Source of the DNA: a virus
Reading direction: 5' to 3' (one strand)
IMG/VR virus record: IMGVR_UViG_3300009124_000099
Coordinates: 1 to 24,862 of that record
DNA: 24,862 bases
Part shown: positions 1 through 24,799 of the stretch, in pieces
Layout: every line of letters begins with the position of its first letter
How positions within the stretch are numbered: position 1 is the first letter of the stretch
Translations under genes and position numbers: made by a program
Notes under the pieces: generated by a model
Seen by the model: only the letters and a program-made list of their open reading frames with translations
What the model was told of the DNA's origin: nothing
The model's database searches: none

Positions 1-3000
1 TTTTCCTGACCATCCGCATTTTCAATTCTATTTGATACTGTCTTAACAGAAGCACTAGAAAGATCAACAACTGGTGACAAGTGAGAAACGGATGAAGATA
101 ATTCCATCTTATAGGTCAAAGATCTGCTAATGCTATTCAAAGTTTCATTAATTTCAGAAGCAATAACTTTCTGATTATCAAAATAATGTGGTTCATTGAG
201 GAAAGTCTTTTCAAACTCAGTTTGTGAGTATGAAGCGTAGTTTGTTGTTGAAGAATCAACGGGAATGATGTTAGTTGTCTTAACAGACGTATCTAGTTTA
301 GTGCCAGAAACTGTCAAGTAGTGAACTTGTGGATATAGAGTTTCGAATTTTCTGTTGTAAGTAGCATATACATGTCCACCACCAACAGAACTTCTAGATG
401 CCTTGGTGATAGTTCTAATATTATATGAATCAACACCAGAGTTCATCACTTGGAAGAGATTGGTGTTATATGTTTCAGATGGAATACCACCAGTTTCTTT
501 AACTCCTCTAAAGAAGACATAAGAATGACCACTATCTTCAAAACCATTATCTCTGTGGTTAATCTTGATAATGCTGTTGTTATTTCTAAAGAGTTTTGAA
601 GTAGCAATCGATTCTGAAGTTGCATCAGTCTCAACTGGATTCATTTCAAGAAGTTCGTATCCAAGACTTACATTCTTGAGTAACAATTCGGAAGGTCTAG
701 AAATATCAAACTCAGCACGGTAAATTGTAAACTTAAGATCTTGATCTAAATCTTCAGTCCAATTTTCAGTGTTCTGAGACTTATAAAGAGATCCAAGAGA
801 TGGTTGAGTTGTGATTACGGTGCTTGTAGATAGATCAGTCTGTCCTAGAGCAGAAGACCACAACTCATAATCAGTTGAATCTGTTTCAACTACCATAGCA
901 TATTCGGAATCATTCTCTAGATATACAGGATAATCAAAAGCAAAATGTGTTGGAGTAGTAGACTCTGTAAGACCCTCAAAATCGGTTGCTACGCCCATTC
1001 TAACTGCTGGGGTATCGATATTAATAAACGTCTCTACAGTACACCCTCCAGCGCCATTACCAACGCCTTTGATGACTACTGATGGTGCTTCGGTATAACC
1101 AAAACCAGCAATTGATACTTCTGCATTGTAAATTCTACCATCAGATACATTGATCGTAGCAGTTGCCACAGAACCACCAGGAAGTTGTGGACTTTCAATA
1201 GTCAAAACTGCGCTGTCATAATTAGCGCCAGGGTTGGTAACTCTAATTTCAGAAAGTTTACCACTATCCTTAGCAATTGTTAGTTTTAGATCTGTTCCTC
1301 CAGTAGCATTTGCTAATGTTACCGAAGGAATTTCTAGATCCTCATTTTGTAAGAATGAACGACCATTGTGGTTACTTAGGACAAGTGTATATACCTGCTC
1401 ATTTGTCAGTGCGTATACTCCAGTAGAAGAAGGTGTTAGATCAACACCATTCTTATCAATAATCTTAGAGATAGGACCAGAAGCAGCAGAACTAGTTCCT
1501 ACAACATACTCACCTCTGGTAACCAATACGTTGCCAGAAGCATAACACTTAAGATATGTGTTTGGAGTTAAAGTTTTTTCTGTTCCAGGAACAATGTTTT
1601 TGGCGGGTTTGTCAAAGTCAACATTAGTCATGTAAACTCTAACTGGAATATTAGCACTCTTATTCTTAAAGTAAAGATCAGCACCAGTTACAAACACACC
1701 ACCATCAAAGTTTTCGACCTTGAATACTTGTGCTAGTGGGTTGGGTCTTAGTGGGTTATCTGTGTTGCTTTCGACGAACTGAACACCCTCGTTTGACTTA
1801 AAGTAAGATGGTTTGGTGGATACAATGCTAGAAGGATTCTGTGGAAGAATACCTGAAGCATAATACTTAATTTCAGCATAAGTATCTACGTTTGCTTTAT
1901 TCTCATTAGTGCTACTAGAAGTAAATCTAAAGGTTAGTTCACCAGTAGTAAAGCGTAGTTCCTCTGAAGACTCATCATATTCAACGGTATTGGAGTCTCC
2001 AGTCCAAGTAGCATTCTCTCTTGGAGCATATCCAGCAGGGAGTAGAATTAGACCACTAGCATTACCATTCTCATCAGTTATAATCTCTCCATTAAATGCT
2101 GACAGAGAGTTTCCAGCAATACCAGTAAATCTTAAGTCTGGGTTAACCCAACGATTAATATTTCTTCCTTCTAAGAATACCGAAACCTTGGTTAGGGGCT
2201 TGAGTCTTCCAATTACAAATTTGATAGGTCTAGTTCTAGCAAAGAATTGTAGTGATGTTGATACAACATTCTCACCAACTGTCTTAGTTTGGACTCCTTT
2301 TCCTAGTTCGTTATTTTGTGGACTAATGTTAGAGGAACTTCCAACAGAAGCAGACTTAACAGAAGACTTGGCATTAGATGTATTAGTTTCGCCAAGAGAA
2401 TTAATTGATGTAAATGATGGAGATGTTCCAACCCAGTTTACAACAAACGAATTGTGTAGACTGGAGAAACTTTCCTTGGCATTGTCTTTAGCAATAAAGA
2501 TATCAAATAGACTTGTATTTGTATCGACAACCAGTGGTTCTACACTTTGATCGTACCACTGATCAACTTGAGGAGAAACTTCACCCTCTCCAACATATTG
2601 GAATACAACAAATGGATTTGGATTGATTGTCTTAGATGCGAAATCATTACCAAGTAGTTTGAGACTACTATATGGTAAAGTTACGATATCTCCAGATTTT
2701 TGATATCCAGCAACAGATCTTTGATCTTGTCTAGTATTAACTTCTCTGAGAAGAATCGAATCTTCCTTAGATTGTGGTCTTAAAACAGACTGTCTGCTAT
2801 CGATAGCACACTTATAGTCAGCAGAAACAAGATTACCAATGCCGTGAGTTTCAAAATTATCTACAAAGAAACCAGACTTAAATCTATCAAGTCCAATTTC
2901 ATCCTTAACCTGCATATTCAATGCTTGTTGCTCAAGGATACTCAGAGTGGTGTAATACTCTAAACGCTCAATACGCTTCTCAAGTTTTCCAATATCTTTC

Positions 3001-6000
3001 ATCGTATATCTACGATGCTCTACTGGAGTGATCCTTACATCCTTGCTAGTTGTTGTGTATGCTGGAATATAAGCATAGAATAGAGCAACTGCATCCTTGA
3101 CAGGATCTGGTTTAGTTGGATTGAGAGAAGAGTTACCTTCCTTTACAATAAATTCTCCTCTCTTATTGAGGAAGATGCCATCAATACGATCTAGGTACTG
3201 AACCTGACTGAACGAGAATGTGTACTCTAGATTTACATCTGGAGCAGGTGTGCTTGCGACAACAGAACCAGCACCAGTGAAATTACTGTTAGTAACTTCT
3301 AGCGTTGAAGTGTCTTGATATCCAGCAACAATTGTTGAAGTATTTACTTTTGGTCTGAAATCAATAACATTCTTCAGTTCTACATTTCCAAGAGTAGATG
3401 AGTTAAATGTTGGAATTTCGTCTTCGAGAACACCAGCTTCGTGTAGGTAACTATCGATAGTTACAAAGTCTCCCTGAGAATGTTCAAAGTAATCAAAAGC
3501 AATTACAATTTGTCCTACAGTTGGTTCAAATCCTGGTTTTAGAACAATTCTTGAAACATCATAGATTGTGTCTCTCTGTCCATTGTCAAACGTAAATCTA
3601 TTAGTTACATCAGTTCCAGAAACTAGATTTCCTGCGCTATCAATTTCGGGTGGTTGTGTACTAGTTCCCTCATAAACATAACGTAGTCTGTATGCATCGG
3701 AGAATGATAGAGTTTCTACAACGTCGCTATCATAGTCAGTTCCTCTGAAAGGAATGACTCTATCGCCAGCAGAATCAACGACAATACGCTTGTTCTTGAT
3801 AGCAGTTTTGAGTCTTGGTTTCGCATTAGAAACTTCTAGAGTTGCTGTGAGTTTTAACTCAGGAGCAACGTAATTTGCTTCGCCAGCAAAGTTGGTGTTG
3901 AAATATGAAGTTGGTAGTTGGAACGTAATGCTACCAGAAGTCAATCCACTGGATGTGTCGGTAGCAGATACAATCTCAACATTATCTTCATCGATGTAAA
4001 CAATGTCTCCATCTTCAACCAGATCAGCACTGTTCTTATTCAAGACAGTAACAATGTAGTTCTTTTCGTTGAATGAAGTAAACCTTTGTGTTCCAAATGG
4101 CAATTGGGCAGCGAATGTGATAATACCACCACCAGTTGATCCAGCAGTAACAAAGTCTCTTCTAAAGAAGTATTTGATCTTGGTGTCTTCTGTACCAGCA
4201 GAAATTTTCTGAACCTGCTTGCTTCCTGTTGGGAATAGAAGTGTTCCTGAGTTTGGATTCTTAACTCTTGGACGAAGAAGAACAACACTGGTACTAGTTA
4301 CATCATCATAAAGTGTCTCGTCAATATAAATTCTGGTCTTGGCAGATCCTTTTTGGATAGTTGCGTATTGTACAACTGCTCTGATAACATTATTAGACGC
4401 ATCAGAGAATTGAATTAAATCGCCTTGCTGAACAACACTGCTGGCATCAGCACTAAAACTTGTAGATTCAAGGAACTTTGTTCCTTTAGAACCAAAGAAT
4501 GTGAAGTCAGTTACAGATGAAACATTAGCGAAGTCTCTGTCATCAACTACAGCATCCGCAGTAAAGTTATTGGCATTACCAGATCCATAAGAAGCACCAA
4601 AAGATTTTACATTTTGTGGTGTGTATGTAGTAACAGTATTTCTGTTAAGAACAGGAATAATAACGGCAGATGTTGTTGGTGTAGTTTCTCCAGAATTAAC
4701 TGTAATTACTGGTGGTTTTGAGTATTCACCAGCAAAAGAAACTCTGTCAATGATATCAACTCTGTAGATACCTTGACCATTGAAACCAAGTTCTACTTGG
4801 GATTGGTCATACTCTACGCCATCAACAACAATAGTAGAAGTTGATGGGTATCCTAATCCTCTTTCTTGTACAACAAAATGGGAGATTGTATTTTCTTTTG
4901 CGATCTTTACAAGATTGCCTGCTTCGTCTCTAACTGTTTCTCCAGGAACAAACTTTCCAGAAAGAGTTTTAACAAATAAGATTTTACCCGTTGAGTAAAC
5001 TCCATTTGGAGATCCTTCTACTACACCATAAGCACCACTGGTCAATCCATATACATACTCACCAACACCATATGAATTAGTTGGTACTACAGATTCTAGA
5101 GTAATTCTTGTAAAGAATTGGGGATCAAAATATGATAATCCAAACTTAGCAGTATAAGCACTACCACCTTCTGCCAATGTTCCTTTGGAAATAACAATAT
5201 CAGAGTCTGGATTAAAACCAGCACCTCTCTCTTCCAAATAGAAATTGCTTGGTTTTGCAGTTCCGATTACAGGAGTAATAGTATCGCTGTAATCAACTAC
5301 ATTAGCAAAAATTGTTGATGCTAAATCTTCTTTCTCATCTCCAATTGCGTCTGCTTGTGTCAAGAAGACTTTTCTATTCTTTCCTTGTGAACTTTCATCA
5401 TACTCTTTGAAGATATTTTCTAGGTCACTCTTAGTACCAGCAATAGTTACTTCTAAAAATCTAGACTCTTCAGTAGTTCCTGGATTCTTGAGTGGCTTAA
5501 AGACCTTTGTATATGAAAGAACATCTACGCTACCAACAATATTTGTTCCTGCTCTAGTCTTAACATACCAAAGTTTACTAAAGGTATTTTCTAGATCCGA
5601 AGGTACGATACTAGTAATTGGGATATTTACATCTACAATTTCGAGTGTTACTGTTTTAATACCTGTATTGGTATCAAAATACTGACCTCTTCTAGAAACT
5701 GTTTGACGATAGTTTGTGGTTGATTCGGTATTACTGAGACCAACATAACCATCGTTAAACAGAGAATACAAATATACTGTTGGGTATGCTGTAAGTTGTG
5801 ATCCTTCTTTATTCAGAGGAACACTGCCATATACATTACTAATAGTATAAGTTGGTAGACCTTTTGTTTTAAGAGTTACATTGTCAGTGCTGAGACTTTC
5901 TCTTGCTTTGTTAATTTCAAGATACTTAGTTTCTTTATTTACAATTTCATATCCTCTAATATATGCTTTACCAGGACCAATACTGGCAATCATTTTTCTA

Positions 6001-7103
6001 CCAGCTTCTCCAGCAGAAAGACCATTATAAAGACCAAACTCATCGGCAGCATAGAGACCTCTATTGCTATCTTTCTGAGCATACTCTCTAATATCAACAG
6101 AGAAGTCTTGTACTACATAATCACCGCTCTCATCAAAAGTTCTTCTTGCTAGAGTCTGCTCTAGCACACTGTAATCAGCAGGAGTTACTTTTCTCTGTAC
6201 AACTCCGCGATTTACAGTAATAAGTTGAATGAAGTTCTTATCTGTGATAGCATCTAGAGCAAACTCTTTGAGTTCTAGACTAATTCTTAGTCTGTGAGCT
6301 CCAGGTGCTGTGTAGTTAGAAGAACCAATAGCATTGTCATAAAGAGATGAGTCTTCTTCTGGAGTTACAACCTCTTCTTTGATTGTAAATCCAACTTTTG
6401 CGGAAGGTTTATTGTAGTATTCGTCGATAACGAGGAGTTGTGCATCGTTACGGACGAAATATCCATTAACAAAATAGATACCTTCTTCTACCTTTACAGC
6501 AGAAGCATAACCCATAGCTGGACTTTCTAGAGAAGTTACAGCACCAGTATCTGGATTGGTTACATTAATACTAGTTGGTAAAACACTACCATCTGTTCCA
6601 ACAACCATTAATGGAGTATTGACACCATCAACGACTTCTAAAGTTTCGCCTTGGCGGAAAGTAGTTTCAGCATTAGAATTGCCACTATTTTGATAACTTA
6701 CAAATAAAGTATCTGAAGCAATTTCTGTTGCTATATTTGCCGATAATATATTAGCAACAACACCAGAAGTTAAACCACGCAGTTGGAGACCAATTAACTG
6801 AGTGATATCATACTTTCTGTATACAATGTCATCTCCCTCAGAAATAGCAACTTCTGAAACAGAAGATAACTTAACATAGTCTAGTTTTGTATTAAGACCA
6901 ACCTCACCAGGAATAACTAGTTCTCCCTGCTTGAAAGCATACTTACCAAAACTTTCAACCTGATTTTGAAGAATAGATTGTAGTTGTGTTAATTCTCTAC
7001 CTTGTATGGAGTACCCAGGACGGAAAAGAATCTTATAAAAATTCTTGCTCGCGTCAAAGTCCTCGTAGTAAGGATTTACATTTAGGTTAGTCTTCTGAGG
7101 CAT
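1..7103 (-). CDS. DUF4815-type giant virion structural protein (3' end beyond the window)
   Basis: The frame is open from ATG at 7103 to the left edge: 2,367 codons with no stop, and the C-terminus lies outside the window. I read the translation through and found it continuous. The N-terminus (NPYYEDFDASKNFYKILFRP at residues 10-29, then PGYSIQGRELTQLQSILQ) is the hallmark of the DUF4815 family, known to me from cyanophage and pelagiphage structural proteins. A second family signature, KLEKRIERLEYYTTLSILE, is a likely coiled coil near residues 1365-1390. The rest is beta-rich, Ser/Thr/Asn-rich sequence with GxGY repeats (for example GFGYTEAPSVVIKG near residue 2000). GGAG lies 4 nt before the ATG. 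The gene follows the gp8 terminator, so it is probably a separate late unit. The likely role is a baseplate-periphery or fibre-like virion protein; its exact position in the particle is unknown. Confidence 0.9.
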   Translation of the reverse strand, partial: MPQKTNLNVNPYYEDFDASKNFYKILFRPGYSIQGRELTQLQSILQNQVESFGKYAFKQGELVIPGEVGLNTKLDYVKLSSVSEVAISEGDDIVYRKYDITQLIGLQLRGLTSGVVANILSANIATEIASDTLFVSYQNSGNSNAETTFRQGETLEVVDGVNTPLMVVGTDGSVLPTSINVTNPDTGAVTSLESPAMGYASAVKVEEGIYFVNGYFVRNDAQLLVIDEYYNKPSAKVGFTIKEEVVTPEEDSSLYDNAIGSSNYTAPGAHRLRISLELKEFALDAITDKNFIQLITVNRGVVQRKVTPADYSVLEQTLARRTFDESGDYVVQDFSVDIREYAQKDSNRGLYAADEFGLYNGLSAGEAGRKMIASIGPGKAYIRGYEIVNKETKYLEINKARESLSTDNVTLKTKGLPTYTISNVYGSVPLNKEGSQLTAYPTVYLYSLFNDGYVGLSNTESTTNYRQTVSRRGQYFDTNTGIKTVTLEIVDVNIPITSIVPSDLENTFSKLWYVKTRAGTNIVGSVDVLSYTKVFKPLKNPGTTEESRFLEVTIAGTKSDLENIFKEYDESSQGKNRKVFLTQADAIGDEKEDLASTIFANVVDYSDTITPVIGTAKPSNFYLEERGAGFNPDSDIVISKGTLAEGGSAYTAKFGLSYFDPQFFTRITLESVVPTNSYGVGEYVYGLTSGAYGVVEGSPNGVYSTGKILFVKTLSGKFVPGETVRDEAGNLVKIAKENTISHFVVQERGLGYPSTSTIVVDGVEYDQSQVELGFNGQGIYRVDIIDRVSFAGEYSKPPVITVNSGETTPTTSAVIIPVLNRNTVTTYTPQNVKSFGASYGSGNANNFTADAVVDDRDFANVSSVTDFTFFGSKGTKFLESTSFSADASSVVQQGDLIQFSDASNNVIRAVVQYATIQKGSAKTRIYIDETLYDDVTSTSVVLLRPRVKNPNSGTLLFPTGSKQVQKISAGTEDTKIKYFFRRDFVTAGSTGGGIITFAAQLPFGTQRFTSFNEKNYIVTVLNKNSADLVEDGDIVYIDEDNVEIVSATDTSSGLTSGSITFQLPTSYFNTNFAGEANYVAPELKLTATLEVSNAKPRLKTAIKNKRIVVDSAGDRVIPFRGTDYDSDVVETLSFSDAYRLRYVYEGTSTQPPEIDSAGNLVSGTDVTNRFTFDNGQRDTIYDVSRIVLKPGFEPTVGQIVIAFDYFEHSQGDFVTIDSYLHEAGVLEDEIPTFNSSTLGNVELKNVIDFRPKVNTSTIVAGYQDTSTLEVTNSNFTGAGSVVASTPAPDVNLEYTFSFSQVQYLDRIDGIFLNKRGEFIVKEGNSSLNPTKPDPVKDAVALFYAYIPAYTTTSKDVRITPVEHRRYTMKDIGKLEKRIERLEYYTTLSILEQQALNMQVKDEIGLDRFKSGFFVDNFETHGIGNLVSADYKCAIDSRQSVLRPQSKEDSILLREVNTRQDQRSVAGYQKSGDIVTLPYSSLKLLGNDFASKTINPNPFVVFQYVGEGEVSPQVDQWYDQSVEPLVVDTNTSLFDIFIAKDNAKESFSSLHNSFVVNWVGTSPSFTSINSLGETNTSNAKSSVKSASVGSSSNISPQNNELGKGVQTKTVGENVVSTSLQFFARTRPIKFVIGRLKPLTKVSVFLEGRNINRWVNPDLRFTGIAGNSLSAFNGEIITDENGNASGLILLPAGYAPRENATWTGDSNTVEYDESSEELRFTTGELTFRFTSSSTNENKANVDTYAEIKYYASGILPQNPSSIVSTKPSYFKSNEGVQFVESNTDNPLRPNPLAQVFKVENFDGGVFVTGADLYFKNKSANIPVRVYMTNVDFDKPAKNIVPGTEKTLTPNTYLKCYASGNVLVTRGEYVVGTSSAASGPISKIIDKNGVDLTPSSTGVYALTNEQVYTLVLSNHNGRSFLQNEDLEIPSVTLANATGGTDLKLTIAKDSGKLSEIRVTNPGANYDSAVLTIESPQLPGGSVATATINVSDGRIYNAEVSIAGFGYTEAPSVVIKGVGNGAGGCTVETFINIDTPAVRMGVATDFEGLTESTTPTHFAFDYPVYLENDSEYAMVVETDSTDYELWSSALGQTDLSTSTVITTQPSLGSLYKSQNTENWTEDLDQDLKFTIYRAEFDISRPSELLLKNVSLGYELLEMNPVETDATSESIATSKLFRNNNSIIKINHRDNGFEDSGHSYVFFRGVKETGGIPSETYNTNLFQVMNSGVDSYNIRTITKASRSSVGGGHVYATYNRKFETLYPQVHYLTVSGTKLDTSVKTTNIIPVDSSTTNYASYSQTEFEKTFLNEPHYFDNQKVIASEINETLNSISRSLTYKMELSSSVSHLSPVVDLSSASVKTVSNRIENADGQE

Positions 7104-19449: not shown

Positions 19450-21246
19450 TTACTCTTTATATGCGGTGAAACTTGAATTCGCTACGTCAACGTCAAGATA
19501 AACCTCACGGAGTGCCTTGATGTCATTGGATAATGGGTTTACTCTAACAGAAATACGGTTATCAAAATATGTACCCTTGATGATAGTCAAATCGTACATT
19601 CTTAGTTCGCCTTTTACATAGTCAATATCGCCAACTTCTGAGTTGAGAACAACCTTTTCGCTAGTTGCAGTATCTAGTCTATATAGGACAATTTTGCCAC
19701 CCCTATCTTCAAGATACACGTCAAAATTTGGGTATTCAGTGACTCTAAATCCAGTTGTGGAGAGAGTTGGTCCGTCACAGTCTTCGTCAAATGTGTTCTG
19801 GAAACAAATCTCGTAATAGAATGTTGAATTGAGTTGTGGATAGAAATCCTTTCTCATTGTTACAGAAGTGAGATTTGAGTTGATACTACGATCAGCATCA
19901 TCAATCACACCCACCATTTTACTGTGTCTAAACTTACCATTGAACTTTTCAATGTCTGAAATATCAATGTAGTTTTGTACAGCAGCGATTGCTTTGTCTC
20001 TAATTTGCGCTGGAGTCTGATCAGTTGATGATCCATTGTAATAAATCTTACTATTCAACTCAACATATAGAATTGATGGATCAATAATCTCTGGTTCAAT
20101 AGAAGCAACGGAATATTTTTGTAATTCTGCTACAATATTGCTCTTTGTCAGTGATGTCAAGTAAGCAGCATCTTTTGGTTTCAATACGATGAATACCTTT
20201 CCATACTGTGGTGGGTCTTGGTCCTCACCTCCAAAAATAATGATGTCGCTGGTAGCAGGGTAAATTCTACGAATGATAGCAGAGTAATCATCAGCAGTAA
20301 CGGCACGATCTTGGGTGCCATATGCTTTTGGTGCTGTATAACGAATCTTCTCTGTACTTTCAATCTCTTCGCCTCCAGCAGCAGCAACTGTCGAAGTGAT
20401 AGATACGTCGAAAGAGTTGGGAGAGACACCTTGTGGGTTCTCTAGGACACCAGAGAAGACGAATGTGCGTACACCATTGCTCTCTGAACCAGAAGTGGTT
20501 AGGTAAGACACCTCTACTCTCGCACCATTCTCTAGTGCCTTACCTAAAACACCATCACCAAATAGCAATTCATATCTCTCATCTTCAATTTCTTCCAAGA
20601 AGAAAACTTTTGATGATCCATTAATACCAATAATATTATCAGCAACTAACCATGGCTCACTGAATGATCCGCCAGTTGGAAATACCTTTACTCTAATAGT
20701 ATTAGTATCAATGTTCTGGTTGTCTAAAATAAAACGCTGTGACTTAAGTGAAGTATTGACAGTGTAAGTATTGACTAACTGAGTGCCTTCTCTTACTTCT
20801 ACATTTTCAAAAGTAGCAACATCGTTCGATACTTGTGCTGTTACATCATCGAGCACAACATACTGATAGATGTTATTGTCATAAGAAGCAATAAATCCAG
20901 TTCCTTTCTTCAGCAGGAGCTCCGTATCTGCAGTTGGTGTTCCATATGTTACATTAAATGATACGTAAGCAGTTGGAGACGTTGTGCTCTTGGGTCTATA
21001 TCCTAACTGCTTCGCAATTGCCACCACATTGTCCCTCAAGGTGGCAGAATCGATGAATAGTTCATTGACTACCATATTAGCGTTAAACGCCGTATAGTAG
21101 GTGTTATAGGCAAGTGTATCGATCAGCGTCGATAATGCACTGCCTTCAAAATCATAATCAGTAAAATCTGACTGTGCTCTGAGATACTCTTTCAGAGCAA
21201 CTTTGATATCTTCAAAGTCTAAGTTAGCAACCTGAGTATAAGGCAT
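19450..21246 (-). CDS. 6: Baseplate wedge protein gp6
   Basis: 598 aa against 660 in T4. The start (FEDIKVALKEYLRAQSDFTD, then FEGSALSTLIDTLAYNTYY and NANMVVNELFIDSATLRDNV) and the middle segment ERYELLFGDGVLGKALENG are characteristic of gp6 and related baseplate J-like wedge proteins. In T4 gp6 dimers form the continuous inner ring that holds the wedges together around the hub. The ATG overlaps the gp25 stop by one base (TAATG), so translation is probably coupled; no strong Shine-Dalgarno is visible. The stop is 4 nt before the start of the giant. The C-terminal half (about 330-598) contains the AVTADDYSAIIRRIYP segment typical of the family and no obvious insertion. Confidence 0.97.
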   Translation of the reverse strand: MPYTQVANLDFEDIKVALKEYLRAQSDFTDYDFEGSALSTLIDTLAYNTYYTAFNANMVVNELFIDSATLRDNVVAIAKQLGYRPKSTTSPTAYVSFNVTYGTPTADTELLLKKGTGFIASYDNNIYQYVVLDDVTAQVSNDVATFENVEVREGTQLVNTYTVNTSLKSQRFILDNQNIDTNTIRVKVFPTGGSFSEPWLVADNIIGINGSSKVFFLEEIEDERYELLFGDGVLGKALENGARVEVSYLTTSGSESNGVRTFVFSGVLENPQGVSPNSFDVSITSTVAAAGGEEIESTEKIRYTAPKAYGTQDRAVTADDYSAIIRRIYPATSDIIIFGGEDQDPPQYGKVFIVLKPKDAAYLTSLTKSNIVAELQKYSVASIEPEIIDPSILYVELNSKIYYNGSSTDQTPAQIRDKAIAAVQNYIDISDIEKFNGKFRHSKMVGVIDDADRSINSNLTSVTMRKDFYPQLNSTFYYEICFQNTFDEDCDGPTLSTTGFRVTEYPNFDVYLEDRGGKIVLYRLDTATSEKVVLNSEVGDIDYVKGELRMYDLTIIKGTYFDNRISVRVNPLSNDIKALREVYLDVDVANSSFTAYKE

Positions 21247-21638
21247 TATCGTGTACGCTCTAGGAAGAATTCTACTGCTACTGGTGCGTCGTCTCTACCT
21301 ACAATCGTATACGACATTTCAACTTCATATCCATTATTTAATTCATCTGGAGTGCAACGAATACTATCCACAGAAATTCGTGGTTCATAACGATTCAGTA
21401 CATCTCTGATCTCTGATCTGATAATACCAGCACTACCATAATCCAATGGTTCGAACAATACATTCTGAATACCACATCCCAACTGGGGTTGGAATGGACG
21501 CTCACCCTTCCTAGTAAGAAGCAAGGCAGTAATCGCTTGAACGATAGCTGCCTTGTCTTTCACTGTTACCAGATCATCTGATACAGGATGCTTCTTAAAT
21601 GTAACACTCAAGTCCTTGAATGTCTGAAAGGTCGGCAT
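21246..21638 (-). CDS. 25: Baseplate wedge protein gp25 (GPW/gp25 family)
   Basis: 130 aa, almost the T4 length of 132. It shows the family signature LLTRKGERPFQPQLGCGIQ followed by LFEPLD, and further on NRYEPRI, which contains the conserved EPR triplet. gp25 is a sheath-initiator-like wedge component, conserved across contractile tails and type VI secretion systems. In T4 gene 25 lies away from genes 5-8, while here it directly precedes gp6, as is usual in cyanomyoviruses. A late-promoter-like AATAAATA lies 25 nt upstream of the ATG. No clear Shine-Dalgarno precedes it. Confidence 0.97.
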   Translation of the reverse strand: MPTFQTFKDLSVTFKKHPVSDDLVTVKDKAAIVQAITALLLTRKGERPFQPQLGCGIQNVLFEPLDYGSAGIIRSEIRDVLNRYEPRISVDSIRCTPDELNNGYEVEMSYTIVGRDDAPVAVEFFLERTR

Positions 21639-21662: not shown

Positions 21663-21670
21663 TATTTATT
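21663..21670 (-). promoter_or_regulatory. Late-promoter-like octamer upstream of gp25
   Basis: AATAAATA on the minus strand matches the T4 late octamer TATAAATA at 7 of 8 positions. It begins at the final base of the stop codon of the 71-aa gene and lies 25 nt before the gp25 ATG. This spacing resembles that of the perfect sites upstream of gp8. It would start a gp25-gp6-giant transcript. Confidence 0.6.
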
Positions 21671-21907: not shown

Positions 21908-22579
21908 TTAATCAGAACTTTTAACGGGGTTGCTATCCCTCTCTTTTGGTGTTTGCCAGAAATAATCATCAGTGTCTCCTAAGCGTCCCCAGTCGATTCC
22001 TGCCTCTACTTGATATTCTATGGTAGAAACCTTGAAGTCAGGGAACTTGGGTTCTTCTGGAGTGATAGAGAGGTCATACAGACGCATCCTATTATTAGGA
22101 TACAATGCGTATTGACCGTTGTTCAATGCGATACAATTATGAGATTTGTGCTCTTGAGGCACTTCACTTACATTATTATCTATCACATCAATATTAGCAT
22201 GGTAATTATCAAGTGTGAATAGATACTGCCCTCTCATGAGTCCGTGATCTCTGGTAAAGACCTCACAGTCCATCGATGACACAAATCCTTTGTTCACGGC
22301 AGTAACGCCATAATCCATACAATTCCAAAATTGTAGATTCTCCAAACTCATGTCTATGACTGGAGTTTCGGGGGATCGAACAAAGGCACTGATAGGGAGT
22401 TTGTCATACATTGCCCCATACTCAGGCAAGTACGTTTCAAAATAAAAAGCGCGTCCAGGTATGCTCTTAGCACACACCCAGACGCCCTCCACAAACTCCC
22501 CGTGACCATCTTGATGATCTCGTAAGTATTCTTTACGTACCCAGACTTTTTCAGCAGGAAGATTGCAGATTAAATTCAT
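21908..22579 (-). CDS. Conserved cyanophage-type hypothetical protein (223 aa)
   Basis: Recognisable segments are EKVWVRKEYLRDHQDGHGEF (10-29), CAKSIPGRAFYFETYLPEYG, YDKLPISAFV, LQFWNCMDYGVTAV, YLFTLDNYHA, ALNNGQYALYPNNRMRLYD and DFKVSTIEYQ. I recall closely similar proteins annotated as hypothetical in many marine cyanophages, with near-identical blocks such as VWVRKEYLRDH and GRAFYFETYLPEYGA. It is rich in aromatic residues, has no signal peptide or membrane helix, and shows no catalytic motif I recognise. The ATG overlaps the stop of the upstream 48-aa gene (ATGA), so translation is coupled; AAGG lies just before it. The function is unknown. Confidence 0.88.
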   Translation of the reverse strand: MNLICNLPAEKVWVRKEYLRDHQDGHGEFVEGVWVCAKSIPGRAFYFETYLPEYGAMYDKLPISAFVRSPETPVIDMSLENLQFWNCMDYGVTAVNKGFVSSMDCEVFTRDHGLMRGQYLFTLDNYHANIDVIDNNVSEVPQEHKSHNCIALNNGQYALYPNNRMRLYDLSITPEEPKFPDFKVSTIEYQVEAGIDWGRLGDTDDYFWQTPKERDSNPVKSSD

Positions 22580-22722
22580 CGACCTTGACCGCGATAACGC
22601 TTCTTTGCTTTGTTACGAGAAGTGGCAGCATACAGAGTGTGCTTAGAAGTACCTTGACGGGTCTTCTTGGGCTTGCTCTCAATGATCTTCTTGCCACTCA
22701 GACCAACTTTTGCTCGTGCCAT
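22576..22722 (-). CDS. Very basic 48-aa protein
   Basis: Translation: MARAKVGLSGKKIIESKPKK, then TRQGTSKHTLYAATSRNKAK, then KRYRGQGR. Sixteen of 48 residues are Lys or Arg and only one is acidic. The C-terminal SRNKAKKRYRGQGR looks like a nucleic-acid-binding tail, similar in style to ribosomal proteins. It is shorter than usual ORF cutoffs and easily missed. Support comes from an ATGA overlap with the 223-aa gene and a TATAAT promoter candidate 25 nt upstream. The Shine-Dalgarno is weak (GAG, 4 nt before the ATG), and the leader would be very short. The role is unknown; an RNA- or DNA-binding or virion-packaged protein is possible. Confidence 0.85.
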   Translation of the reverse strand: MARAKVGLSGKKIIESKPKKTRQGTSKHTLYAATSRNKAKKRYRGQGR

Positions 22723-22746
22723 AACTCAAAAATAATTGACTCTGTT

Positions 22747-22755
22747 ATTATACCA
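22747..22755 (-). promoter_or_regulatory. Extended -10 promoter candidate (TGGTATAAT)
   Basis: The minus strand carries TGGTATAAT, a perfect TATAAT with the TGn extension, starting 4 nt after the PAAR stop and 25 nt before the ATG of the 48-aa gene. No good -35 is present at 17 nt. The same bases read as TATAATAA match the late octamer at 6 of 8 positions. It could be a host-sigma early or middle promoter or a weak late promoter; the sequence cannot decide. Confidence 0.5.
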
Positions 22756-22758
22756 CAC

Positions 22759-23073
22759 TCAACTGAAAAATACCGTGAAACTCGGTAAAAACAGACAAGC
22801 ATTACCATTTGTAATTTGTGCGCCAACAGGAGCAGCAGGTTTACCATTGATCAAAACTGTTCCCGCAGGGTCGCCTATAATGACCTCTGGGTGCGCTGGA
22901 AAGGGTGGGATAGGTAAATAGTGCTCTTCAGAGATATCACCAATCCTGTGGGCGAATCTACCGTTGATCTTTACATTCGCAGAGTACGCTACGCCAGGAG
23001 TATTGAACGTTAATGGAGTATGAATATCATGTGTCCCATACCAACCTTGTCCTGCTAGTCCAAATGGTTTCAT
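22759..23073 (-). CDS. PAAR-domain baseplate spike-tip protein (T4 gp5.4-like)
   Basis: 104 aa, close to the 97 aa of T4 gp5.4. It shows the PAAR pattern: an early THDIHTPLTF, then VKINGRFAHRIGD (about 34-46) and HPEVIIGDPAGTVLINGKPA followed by APVGAQI (about 61-88). Histidines and a cysteine late in the protein could bind the metal that holds the cone together. PAAR proteins cap the central spike of contractile tails and type VI systems and pierce the target envelope. The ATG overlaps the stop of the 391-aa gene (ATGA), which suggests coupled translation and perhaps a fixed ratio of the two proteins. Confidence 0.95.
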   Translation of the reverse strand: MKPFGLAGQGWYGTHDIHTPLTFNTPGVAYSANVKINGRFAHRIGDISEEHYLPIPPFPAHPEVIIGDPAGTVLINGKPAAPVGAQITNGNACLFLPSFTVFFS

Positions 23074-24245
23074 GATACGCTAGATGGTGGTAGATAATCT
23101 GGGTTATCGAGTTTATTTATCCCTGCCCTAGCAAGATGATAATCAAATCTCTTACTAGCAAGGTCGCCATTATACCTTACAGGCCAATAGAAATACCAAA
23201 TATTATTGGTTAAGTTACTACCAAATGACTCAAGACCAGACCTTGCATAGTCCTGTAACGTCAATGCGGTCTCTCCTGGTATCGGGTCAGGTACATTGAT
23301 AGTTGTACAAGATACCTTAATCGTAAAAACAATGGTGTCAAGTCTACTAGGACGCATCGCAACCAATCCTGCTTTTGGATTGTCGCCTATCCATCGAGTA
23401 AAGAAGTTCCAATAATCATTACCAAATGTTCGTGCCTCATCATAGTCACTACTGATCACCCAGTTCTGATAGTTCTCTGCTGGGTATTCACTACGACTCC
23501 ATCCATTGACACCACTTTCATTCGGATACCCTTCTTCGTTATCATCAATGAAGATCAGCTGCCCGTCCGCCCCGCGAGGCAGCTCGGCGCTTCGGCGTAT
23601 CCAGGCACCATCCTCTCGAATCCTTACCATCTCATAATCATCTGTAGGTAAATGATCCTGTCCATAACTCTTATGATTCACTAAGTGTAACTCAGTATCA
23701 TAGAATCCATACTCGGAGACATACCCACTAATCTCAGAAATCCCCACATACCCTAAAAATAAGGCAGGTGGCACCGCATTGTTGCGTACAATGATGCCAG
23801 GGTCTATGGAATCATTCTGAACGTTTGTCCCTGCCCCAGGACTGACCTTGCCCCATCCATCCTTTACTGCTTCGGTGTGACGTATAGCGGTGTCGTCAAA
23901 ATCTGGGATGCCCACGTCGGGATCGTCAGGTTCACGAGGCCATAGGTCAATTCTCTCGATGCTCGTCTCGGTGGTGACAATTCTTTCGTCTTCGAAGACA
24001 GGGACCATCCAAATCTGAGATGGTTCGATCTCCTCCCATGACAACCATGGCGGTGTGTCATTCTGAAAGATTCCATCTAGAAGATCATCAATAATACTCT
24101 TATTACCCTTCGGATAAAACCTCCCAGCATAAAAAGGTACTCCACTTTTTGCTGTGAGTAGATCAACCTTCCTACGATCCGTCCCCTCTATGGGTCCTAT
24201 ACCGCCCATGGAGGGCGCTAAAACGTTTATCCAGGGTACTGCCAT
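23070..24245 (-). CDS. Unrecognised 391-aa protein coupled to the PAAR gene
   Basis: Begins MAVPWINVLAPSMGGIGPIE. Visible features are an acidic Asp/Pro stretch (REPDDPDVGIPDFDD, about 103-117), Trp/Tyr-rich segments such as ENYQNWVISSDYDEARTFG and DYWNFFTRWIGDN, and a C-terminal TNNIWYFYWPVRYNGDLASK. There is no signal peptide, membrane helix, lysozyme motif or OB-fold signature of T4 gp5 that I can see, so I do not call it gp5. The ATG starts one base after the stop of the 76-aa gene, and its own stop overlaps the PAAR start, so it belongs to a tight late operon. A spike, hub or tail-tip role is inferred only from this coupling. It contains a local GC-rich patch at 23557-23598. Confidence 0.88.
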   Translation of the reverse strand: MAVPWINVLAPSMGGIGPIEGTDRRKVDLLTAKSGVPFYAGRFYPKGNKSIIDDLLDGIFQNDTPPWLSWEEIEPSQIWMVPVFEDERIVTTETSIERIDLWPREPDDPDVGIPDFDDTAIRHTEAVKDGWGKVSPGAGTNVQNDSIDPGIIVRNNAVPPALFLGYVGISEISGYVSEYGFYDTELHLVNHKSYGQDHLPTDDYEMVRIREDGAWIRRSAELPRGADGQLIFIDDNEEGYPNESGVNGWSRSEYPAENYQNWVISSDYDEARTFGNDYWNFFTRWIGDNPKAGLVAMRPSRLDTIVFTIKVSCTTINVPDPIPGETALTLQDYARSGLESFGSNLTNNIWYFYWPVRYNGDLASKRFDYHLARAGINKLDNPDYLPPSSVS

Positions 24246-24715: not shown

Positions 24716-24799
24716 CCTAAGTAACAACAAAGGGGGGCAAATCACTGCCCCCCTGGGTATACCTTACTGTCAGGCGCTAAGTGTAACTAATCGCTTGGC
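24702..24799. repeat. 11-bp direct repeat flanking a stop and terminator
   Basis: AATCGCTTGGC occurs at 24702-24712 and again at 24789-24799, an offset of 87 nt (29 codons). Between the copies lie the last codons and stop of the partial gene and the terminator hairpin. Confidence 0.8.
24723..24754 (-). terminator. Rho-independent terminator after the right-edge gene
   Basis: On the minus strand AGGGGGGC and GCCCCCCT form a perfect 8-bp stem with an 8-nt loop, followed by the T-rich tract TTGTTGTTA. It starts 15 nt after the stop of the partial gene. The plus-strand reading has no T tract, so it serves minus-strand transcription entering from the right. Confidence 0.9.

Follow-up and report, generated by a model that had tools for sequence, protein, structure and literature searches.

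The locus analysed here raises the question of why a gene of only 48 codons, encoding a strongly basic protein, stands among the late virion genes of a phage with a promoter of another class in front of it, and whether it is expressed together with those genes or apart from them. The window, that is the whole stretch of DNA analysed, consists of 24,862 bases and is the entire virus record. The genes around the locus are the following:

19450-21246, minus strand: gene for the gp6 baseplate wedge protein
21246-21638, minus strand: gene for the gp25 baseplate wedge protein
21908-22579, minus strand: gene for a 223-aa neighbour, phrog_3704, overlapping at its start with the stop of the 48-aa gene
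22576-22722, minus strand: basic ORF of 48 aa with an ATG start, a member of phrog_516 / T4-GC 394
22759-23073, minus strand: upstream neighbour, gene for a PAAR-motif protein

Elsewhere in the window an ORF of at least 2367 aa (3-7103, minus strand) runs off the left end.

The ORF at 22576-22722 (minus strand), proposed as a gene in the first-pass annotation, is real. Its product matched the profile of phrog_516 over residues 1-48 of 48 (E=3.4e-26, 92.1 bits), and the homologues in S-PM2 (S-PM2p076) and P-SSM4 (PSSM4_075) carry the label T4-GC 394; PHROGs gives no function for phrog_516. By tblastn the 48-aa protein matched 447 phage records at E<=1, the names of which all start with Synechococcus, Prochlorococcus, Cyanophage or Marine, and a divergent phrog_516 member used as query matched 449 phage records at E<=10. 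Among the records named Synechococcus, the 48-aa protein matched 359 and the gp6 of the window 373, these being totals of unpaired records. Searches of Pfam (E<=1), NCBIfam and PDB (E<=10) with the 48-aa protein returned no match, be it to a known nucleic-acid-binding or ribosomal family or to any structure or family pointing to nucleic-acid binding. phrog_516 is a conserved cyanomyovirus protein. A cellular origin was considered and rejected: the protein has 16 matches in bacterial and archaeal genome contigs, of which 15 are flanked by gp25 or other usual phage neighbours and the sixteenth (L106) is cut off, and all 16 look like stray phage contigs. One of them, a 188-kb contig of Nonlabens xiamenensis (L104, NZ_RMVE01000006.1), is almost identical to cyanophage P-TIM40 around the phrog_516 gene, with 100% and 99.4% identity in two proteins, and is probably a contamination of that assembly.

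The expectation that so short a gene would be missed by annotation held in part. Most of the listed isolates annotate it as hypothetical, and the feature is lacking in 4 of 60 rows among the matches listed (Syn30 twice, ACG-2014h twice) and in P-HM2. In the latter (L083:5983-6256), the CDS PHM2_083 begins with GTG inside the unannotated phrog_516 gene, in another frame, and its start may have been placed too far upstream. The S-B43 record (L085) contains a second place that matches the 48-aa protein.

The protein contains 16 Lys/Arg among its 48 residues and a single acidic residue, has a computed pI of 11.8 and ends in SRNKAKKRYRGQGR, so that its composition and C-terminus are as first described. 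The predicted model is of low confidence (mean pLDDT 59) and has no helix; the protein is predicted to be disordered. Across 62 phrog_516 sequences the pattern PK..RQG....T.....S.N...K.YRGQG is invariant. In 71 gap-free sequences pN/pS was 0.30 for the reading frame itself, as compared with 1.62 and 1.97 when the frame is shifted, with third positions carrying 56% of the differences, and between the window and its closest locus (L002) pS was 0.36 and pN 0.009. Among eight genomes, the 48-aa protein surpassed gp25 in conservation in 27 of 28 genome pairs, and gp6 in 27 of 28 as well (mean identities of 60% for the 48-aa protein, 39% for gp25 and 40% for gp6), the sole exception being the pair of the window and S-RSM4. 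Since pN/pS is low in frame and the position is conserved (see below), the objection formulated beforehand, that the frame might not be conserved in relatives or might be free of constraint at the protein level, falls away. From composition and conservation we infer that the protein may bind nucleic acid or a ribonucleoprotein.

We compared 89 loci, comprising 80 IMG/VR contigs, eight isolates and the window; the loci compared are related, so these and the following counts are not independent. gp25 lies downstream of the 48-aa gene in 87 of them and gp6 in 86, with the start of gp25 0.2-1.65 kb past the ATG of the 48-aa gene and varying genes in between, and in the window the gene likewise lies upstream of gp25-gp6. 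The conservation of position that a tblastn check had been expected to reveal is therefore present. In S-B43 gp25 was not found within 6 kb downstream, and an opposite-strand structural gene occurs 363 nt further on. The upstream neighbours include PAAR-type proteins, phrog_11361, phrog_1574 and others. In S-RSM4 (S-RSM4_157, L001:5582-5965) and S-B43 (L085:5576-5965), the PAAR place is occupied by proteins annotated as helicase; these overlap the matches of the PAAR protein of the window and are probably misnamed. The label 'ferredoxin' of phrog_3704 has no Pfam support for the protein at 21908-22579 of the window, and the predicted model of this 223-aa neighbour is poor.

The candidate promoter signals in this part of the window are the following:

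21663-21669, minus strand: late-type promoter core ATAAATA before gp25
22736-22741, minus strand: conserved AGTCAA block, at or just past the expected transcription start
22747-22755, minus strand: extended -10 element TGGTATAAT of a host sigma70-type promoter, just past the stop of the PAAR gene
23114-23120, minus strand: late-type promoter core ATAAATA before the PAAR gene

In the window TGnTATAAT was observed once with 1.76 expected by chance, and ATAAATA five times (two before gp8, one before gp25, one before the PAAR gene and one at about 24.6 kb) with 7.05 expected. As neither motif is above chance, the weight rests on the relatives. Within 60 nt upstream of the 48-aa gene, 28 of 80 distinct relatives carry TGnTATAAT, 31 carry TATAAT and none the late motif, as compared with 0, 3 and 61, respectively, of 79 at the gp25 of the same loci. 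The T4-type late promoter NATAAATA was found before the 48-aa gene in 0 of 80 relatives, and none stands before the ORF in the window. Searching up to 200 nt upstream, TATAAT begins 28-31 nt before the ATG in 32 of 33 cases. The proposal that this promoter differs in class from the TATAAATA type is thus borne out in many, not all, relatives.

Of 117 distinct loci, 67 have a direct sigma70-type promoter, 28 a looser site before phrog_1574 and 22 neither, and 13 of these 22 fall among the 20 loci of one PAAR context. A strict direct match occurs in three of the eight isolates (S-RSM4, S-PM2 and S-B43), and is absent from P-HM2, P-SSM4, P-TIM40, S-H38 and ACG-2014f; S-H38 carries TGCTATACT, and the Prochlorococcus phages P-HM2, P-TIM40 and P-SSM4 are without both the promoter and the terminator signals. 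In the phrog_1574 context (27 distinct loci) the 48-aa gene has no near promoter. There, the strict sigma70 pattern stands before the phrog_1574 operon in 16 loci (shuffle mean 0.04, reverse strand 0) and the looser pattern in 24 (shuffle mean 3.0, reverse strand 1), with the late motif in 0 of 27.

Genome-wide, S-RSM4 has 13 TGnTATAAT sites on the strand where most genes lie and 2 on the other, as against 3 and 6 for the pattern read backwards; the strand counts in six other genomes are 12/7, 11/2, 17/6, 39/6, 7/0 and 3/2, the last of these (S-H38) being no better than the control. Read by eye, the annotation places nine of the 13 sites in S-RSM4 at most about 110 nt ahead of a gene: six hypothetical genes, a dioxygenase-like gene, g46 and the 48-aa gene, none of them annotated as structural. 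A tenth precedes a tRNA gene by 150 nt, and the remaining three fall within genes. By strand, TATAAATA has 9 and 0 sites in S-RSM4, a number not above its backwards control (8 and 3); the six of these nine that fall in the annotated stretches examined stand before g22, two tail-fibre genes and, within structural clusters, three hypothetical genes. In its available part, a 2010 review describes cyanomyovirus late genes as driven by NATAAATA and early genes in S-PM2 and Syn9 as thought to be driven by the unmodified host polymerase through sigma70-like motifs, gives such early motifs as not found in S-RSM4 and calls early and middle gene control unclear (PMC2984593). Because motifs of this kind are thought to drive early genes, it is a natural inference from the promoter class that the 48-aa gene would be expressed earlier than the structural genes.

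A set of 44 distinct loci, found through the upstream protein phrog_11361 together with earlier loci and not through the motif, indicates how the promoter behaves when the spacing changes. In all 44 the 48-aa gene comes next. Where the gap between the two genes is 2-12 nt (37 loci), all 37 contain TTGACA-N17-TAnAAT within the end of the phrog_11361 gene; where it is 29-37 nt (7 loci), the TTGACA string is absent and TGnTATAAT lies in the gap in all seven. The probability of this split is 2.6e-8 assuming independent loci, which serves as a guide value as the loci are related. In L092 the amino acids are altered and TTGACA-17-TAAAAT is retained. The codons of the embedded promoter are among the less variable ones of the phrog_11361 set, in which other codons are also fixed. 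Past the first T of TATAAT, positions 12 (G) and 13 (T), both part of AGTCAA, each reach 97% conservation in 31 promoters of the TATAAT type. The exact string TGnTATAATnnnnnAGTCAA was found in 18 of 88 loci, in one copy each and at the promoter of the 48-aa gene, and in the eight isolate genomes only before this gene, in S-RSM4 and S-B43. To our knowledge the AGTCAA block is not a standard sigma70 feature; one possibility is a regulator site, another a signal at the 5' end.

These promoter data bear on the strongest alternative, namely that the protein is a late virion or assembly component, a basic peptide of baseplate or head, and that its gene is merely the first of the gp25-gp6 cluster. 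The constant position ahead of gp25 (87 of 89 loci) agrees with this, as does the virion study of S-SM1, the available part of which reports 41 detected proteins, with 18 newly added hypothetical ones. Against it stand the late motif, absent within 60 nt of the gene in 80 loci and present at gp25 in 61 of 79, and the terminators that separate the 48-aa gene from gp25 in many loci (see below). The virion table of S-CREM2 also lacks a recognisable entry, a point that counts only if that genome carries the gene and that is limited by the ease with which small basic proteins are missed; the same qualifications apply to the available part of the S-SZBM1 virion table, where no entry is recognisable as the 48-aa gene. 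Two S-PM2 studies do not name the gene in the parts available; one of them, an RNA-seq study (PMC5931967, ArrayExpress E-MTAB-5840), combined its time points in one pool. We consider a virion role unlikely.

Downstream of the 48-aa gene, the window contains a putative terminator:

22451-22485, minus strand: terminator-type hairpin, its stem 14 bp long, located in the 5' end of the 223-aa coding sequence
22439-22450, minus strand: U-rich tail GCTTTTTATTTT following the hairpin

Translational coupling of the 48-aa gene to the 223-aa gene had been proposed. An overlap of stop and start (ATGA, 22576-22579) is present in the window, and the stop letters in 81 distinct relatives, considered as letters only, are ATGA in 24, GTGA or TTGA in 12 and TAATG in 12, the partner gene differing among relatives. 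Co-expression is doubtful, however: because a conserved intrinsic-terminator-like hairpin begins 95 nt into the 223-aa gene, the two genes are probably not simply co-expressed, and a short transcript probably ends at this hairpin.

The hairpin in the window has a folding energy of -27.8 kcal/mol (z -4.8) and shows the GC-rich stem, subsequent U-tract and above-chance stability of an intrinsic terminator. Compared with synonymous shuffles, the hairpin segment gave a mean z of -3.35, with 25 of 28 distinct sequences (window included) below -1.5. A hairpin followed by a T-run within 300 nt after the gene was found at E<=-18 in 55 of 125 distinct loci and in 6 of 750 control windows taken at random from the same strand of the same loci; the corresponding numbers were 64 and 31 at E<=-15, and 86 and 163 at E<=-10. 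A second strong terminator-like hairpin lies near the right end of the window (24731-24754, minus strand).

The embedded terminators reside in genes of phrog_3704, phrog_29004 or phrog_10325, and the others are intergenic with different stems. Pairwise comparison of representatives of the three families gave no significant similarity (E 1.4, 14 and 0.32). Lying in three dissimilar genes or in intergenic stretches with different stems, the terminators after the 48-aa gene are not one inherited element. We also searched from the side of the partner genes, using the best 80 of 224 loci for phrog_29004 and the best 80 of at least 599 for phrog_3704. Hairpins of phrog_3704 (E<=-15) were present in 69 of 74 genes adjacent to the 48-aa gene, in 20 of 29 distal ones and in neither of two with no 48-aa gene in reach, an effect of adjacency (69/74 vs 20/31) with a Fisher p of 0.0005. 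In phrog_29004 they were present in 40 of 44 adjacent genes at E<=-12 (22 of 44 at E<=-15), 6 of 7 distal ones and the single one of unknown arrangement, and in phrog_10325 (E<=-18) in 37 of 37 adjacent genes, 0 of 1 distal and 1 of 1 unknown. As the hairpin often persists when another gene intervenes, the embedded hairpins may partly serve the downstream gene.

In a sample of 235 distinct loci that contain both the 48-aa gene and gp25, and in which the three partner families are over-represented, a terminator of E<=-15 lies between the two genes on the coding strand in 170 and on the reverse strand in 15; 30, including P-HM2, P-TIM40 and P-SSM4, have no hairpin better than -10 before gp25. 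Terminators are about equally common with a near promoter (105/137) and without one (65/98), and several loci with TGnTATAAT are without a terminator (e.g. L011, L014, L016, L038 and L051).

The stems were further examined for covariation in alignments that counted identical rows once (the window being represented by the identical L025) and dropped rows without the searched peptide (four of phrog_29004, one of phrog_3704 and two of phrog_10325). For phrog_3704, phrog_29004 and phrog_10325, respectively, 87.4%, 92.1% and 91.9% of cells are paired, against at most 61% with slid partner columns. Cells with changes on both sides number 44, 14 and 14 in the same order, with means of 23.1, 3.7 and 5.1 in shuffles that leave the relatedness of loci in place and of which 0 of 500 reached the observed counts. 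In phrog_3704, 33 of the 44 cells sit at one pair, three pairs with double change compare with a shuffle mean of 2.7 and are no excess, a slide of -1 yields more such cells (53), and the stem is frequently open at its inner end (39 of 81 at a single pair). Pairs with double change exceed the shuffles in phrog_29004 (5 vs 2.3) and phrog_10325 (3 vs 1.5); further pair types show no clear increase in phrog_3704 and no increase in phrog_10325. Codon use in the U-tract is strongly skewed: its Phe codons are TTT:TTC 205:4, 50:0 and 39:0 in the three families, versus 487:159, 252:108 and 116:38 elsewhere in the counted part of the genes.

Such a hairpin could instead be an attenuator of the downstream gene, with the 48-aa ORF as a translated leader and the ribosomes at the stop/start overlap determining whether transcription reads on. 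This would account for the 36 of 81 distinct loci in which the stop letters could be shared with a start, for a hairpin starting 95 nt inside the next gene in the window and for the hairpins kept in distal phrog_3704 (20/29) and phrog_29004 (6/7) genes. The same ORF, however, is followed by genes of three families that do not resemble each other and, in other loci, by several intergenic terminators, and the protein it encodes is strongly conserved, which typical leader peptides are not; we regard this explanation as improbable. A regulatory RNA, acting with or without the protein, seems less probable again: the predicted discrete transcript of about 300 nt, its conserved AGTCAA start block and the strong hairpin would suit it, but the third-position bias of changes and the low pN/pS indicate a protein, and the window has no Rfam match at the gathering threshold. 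Coincidence combined with shared ancestry, by which promoter-like and hairpin-like strings were inherited with neighbouring coding sequence, draws on the relatedness of the loci, which survives the shuffles, and on the chance-level motif counts in the window, but is very improbable given that the promoter shifts between coding and intergenic positions, that U-tract Phe codons are almost only TTT, that dissimilar genes carry the terminators and that control windows and the reverse strand are mostly without them.

On balance, we favour, at somewhat better than even confidence, the reading that the 48-aa gene is a separately transcribed and probably early unit encoding a disordered, Lys/Arg-rich takeover factor. 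Its family, its constraint and the conservation of promoter and terminator in many relatives come from sequence, to which the reading adds actual transcription, timing, binding and target as deductions. Host RNA polymerase would initiate at the sigma70-type promoter directly upstream, an extended -10 in the window, and in relatives also at TTGACA-17-TAnAAT concealed within the last part of the gene before it. In the window the product would be an RNA of about 300 nt, from approximately 22739, as deduced from the position of the -10 element, to 22440, with transcription mostly halting at the intrinsic terminator within the first part of the following gene. As the start of that gene overlaps the 48-aa stop, translation could reach the hairpin, and part-time read-through or attenuation there is possible. 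The protein would then be made early and in quantity while the baseplate genes, with their gp55-type late promoters, are left off, the flanking late genes before and after using late promoters of their own. It would most likely coat or dock on nucleic acid or a conserved host nucleoprotein machine such as the ribosome, RNA polymerase or the nucleoid. A broader version, which we advance tentatively and hold to be rather less than evenly probable, is that phrog_516 is a widespread early host-takeover factor of marine cyanomyoviruses binding a conserved nucleoprotein machine of the cell, its gene being maintained as a promoter-ORF-terminator cassette of its own, with control elements that are overprinted on the flanking genes and independently rebuilt when the neighbours change.

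The locus thus presents one short, widespread and conserved gene whose signals predict expression apart from the surrounding virion genes, and in many relatives these signals lie inside the neighbouring genes. A 2010 comparison of cyanophage genomes, in its available part, left out promoters and terminators unless they were intergenic or no more than 10 bp from a gene end (PMC3037559), a filter by which signals inside genes would be lost. Synonymous codons fixed at promoters and terminators could be used as a search signal to expose other hidden units in compact phage genomes.

In comparison with known systems, the gene of the window is an ordinary member of phrog_516 / T4-GC 394, matching it over the full length and at the same position upstream of gp25, and no difference was found. 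T4 RepEA and RepEB are small proteins of replication encoded near oriE, within late gene 5, and their likeness to the 48-aa protein is an idea only, that of small early genes in the baseplate region. As a counterpart RepEB was rejected, being encoded on the opposite strand within gene 5 and giving no alignment at E<=100; gp5.3 and RepEA of T4, compared by eye, were set aside. The promoter shares TGnTATAAT or TTGACA-17-TAnAAT at a near-fixed distance with the host sigma70-type promoters of T4-like cyanophages. Unlike these, it lies inside a late virion cluster, is followed by an AGTCAA block found only at the 48-aa gene in the sequences searched and, in relatives, is hidden within the upstream coding sequence. 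The terminator consists of a long stem followed by a U-tract, as in known intrinsic terminators and attenuators. Among the listed papers on hidden terminators, no title or abstract opening describes its arrangement. In contrast to usual terminators and attenuators, hairpins of the type in the window lie within the 5' coding portion of three downstream genes that are dissimilar to each other.
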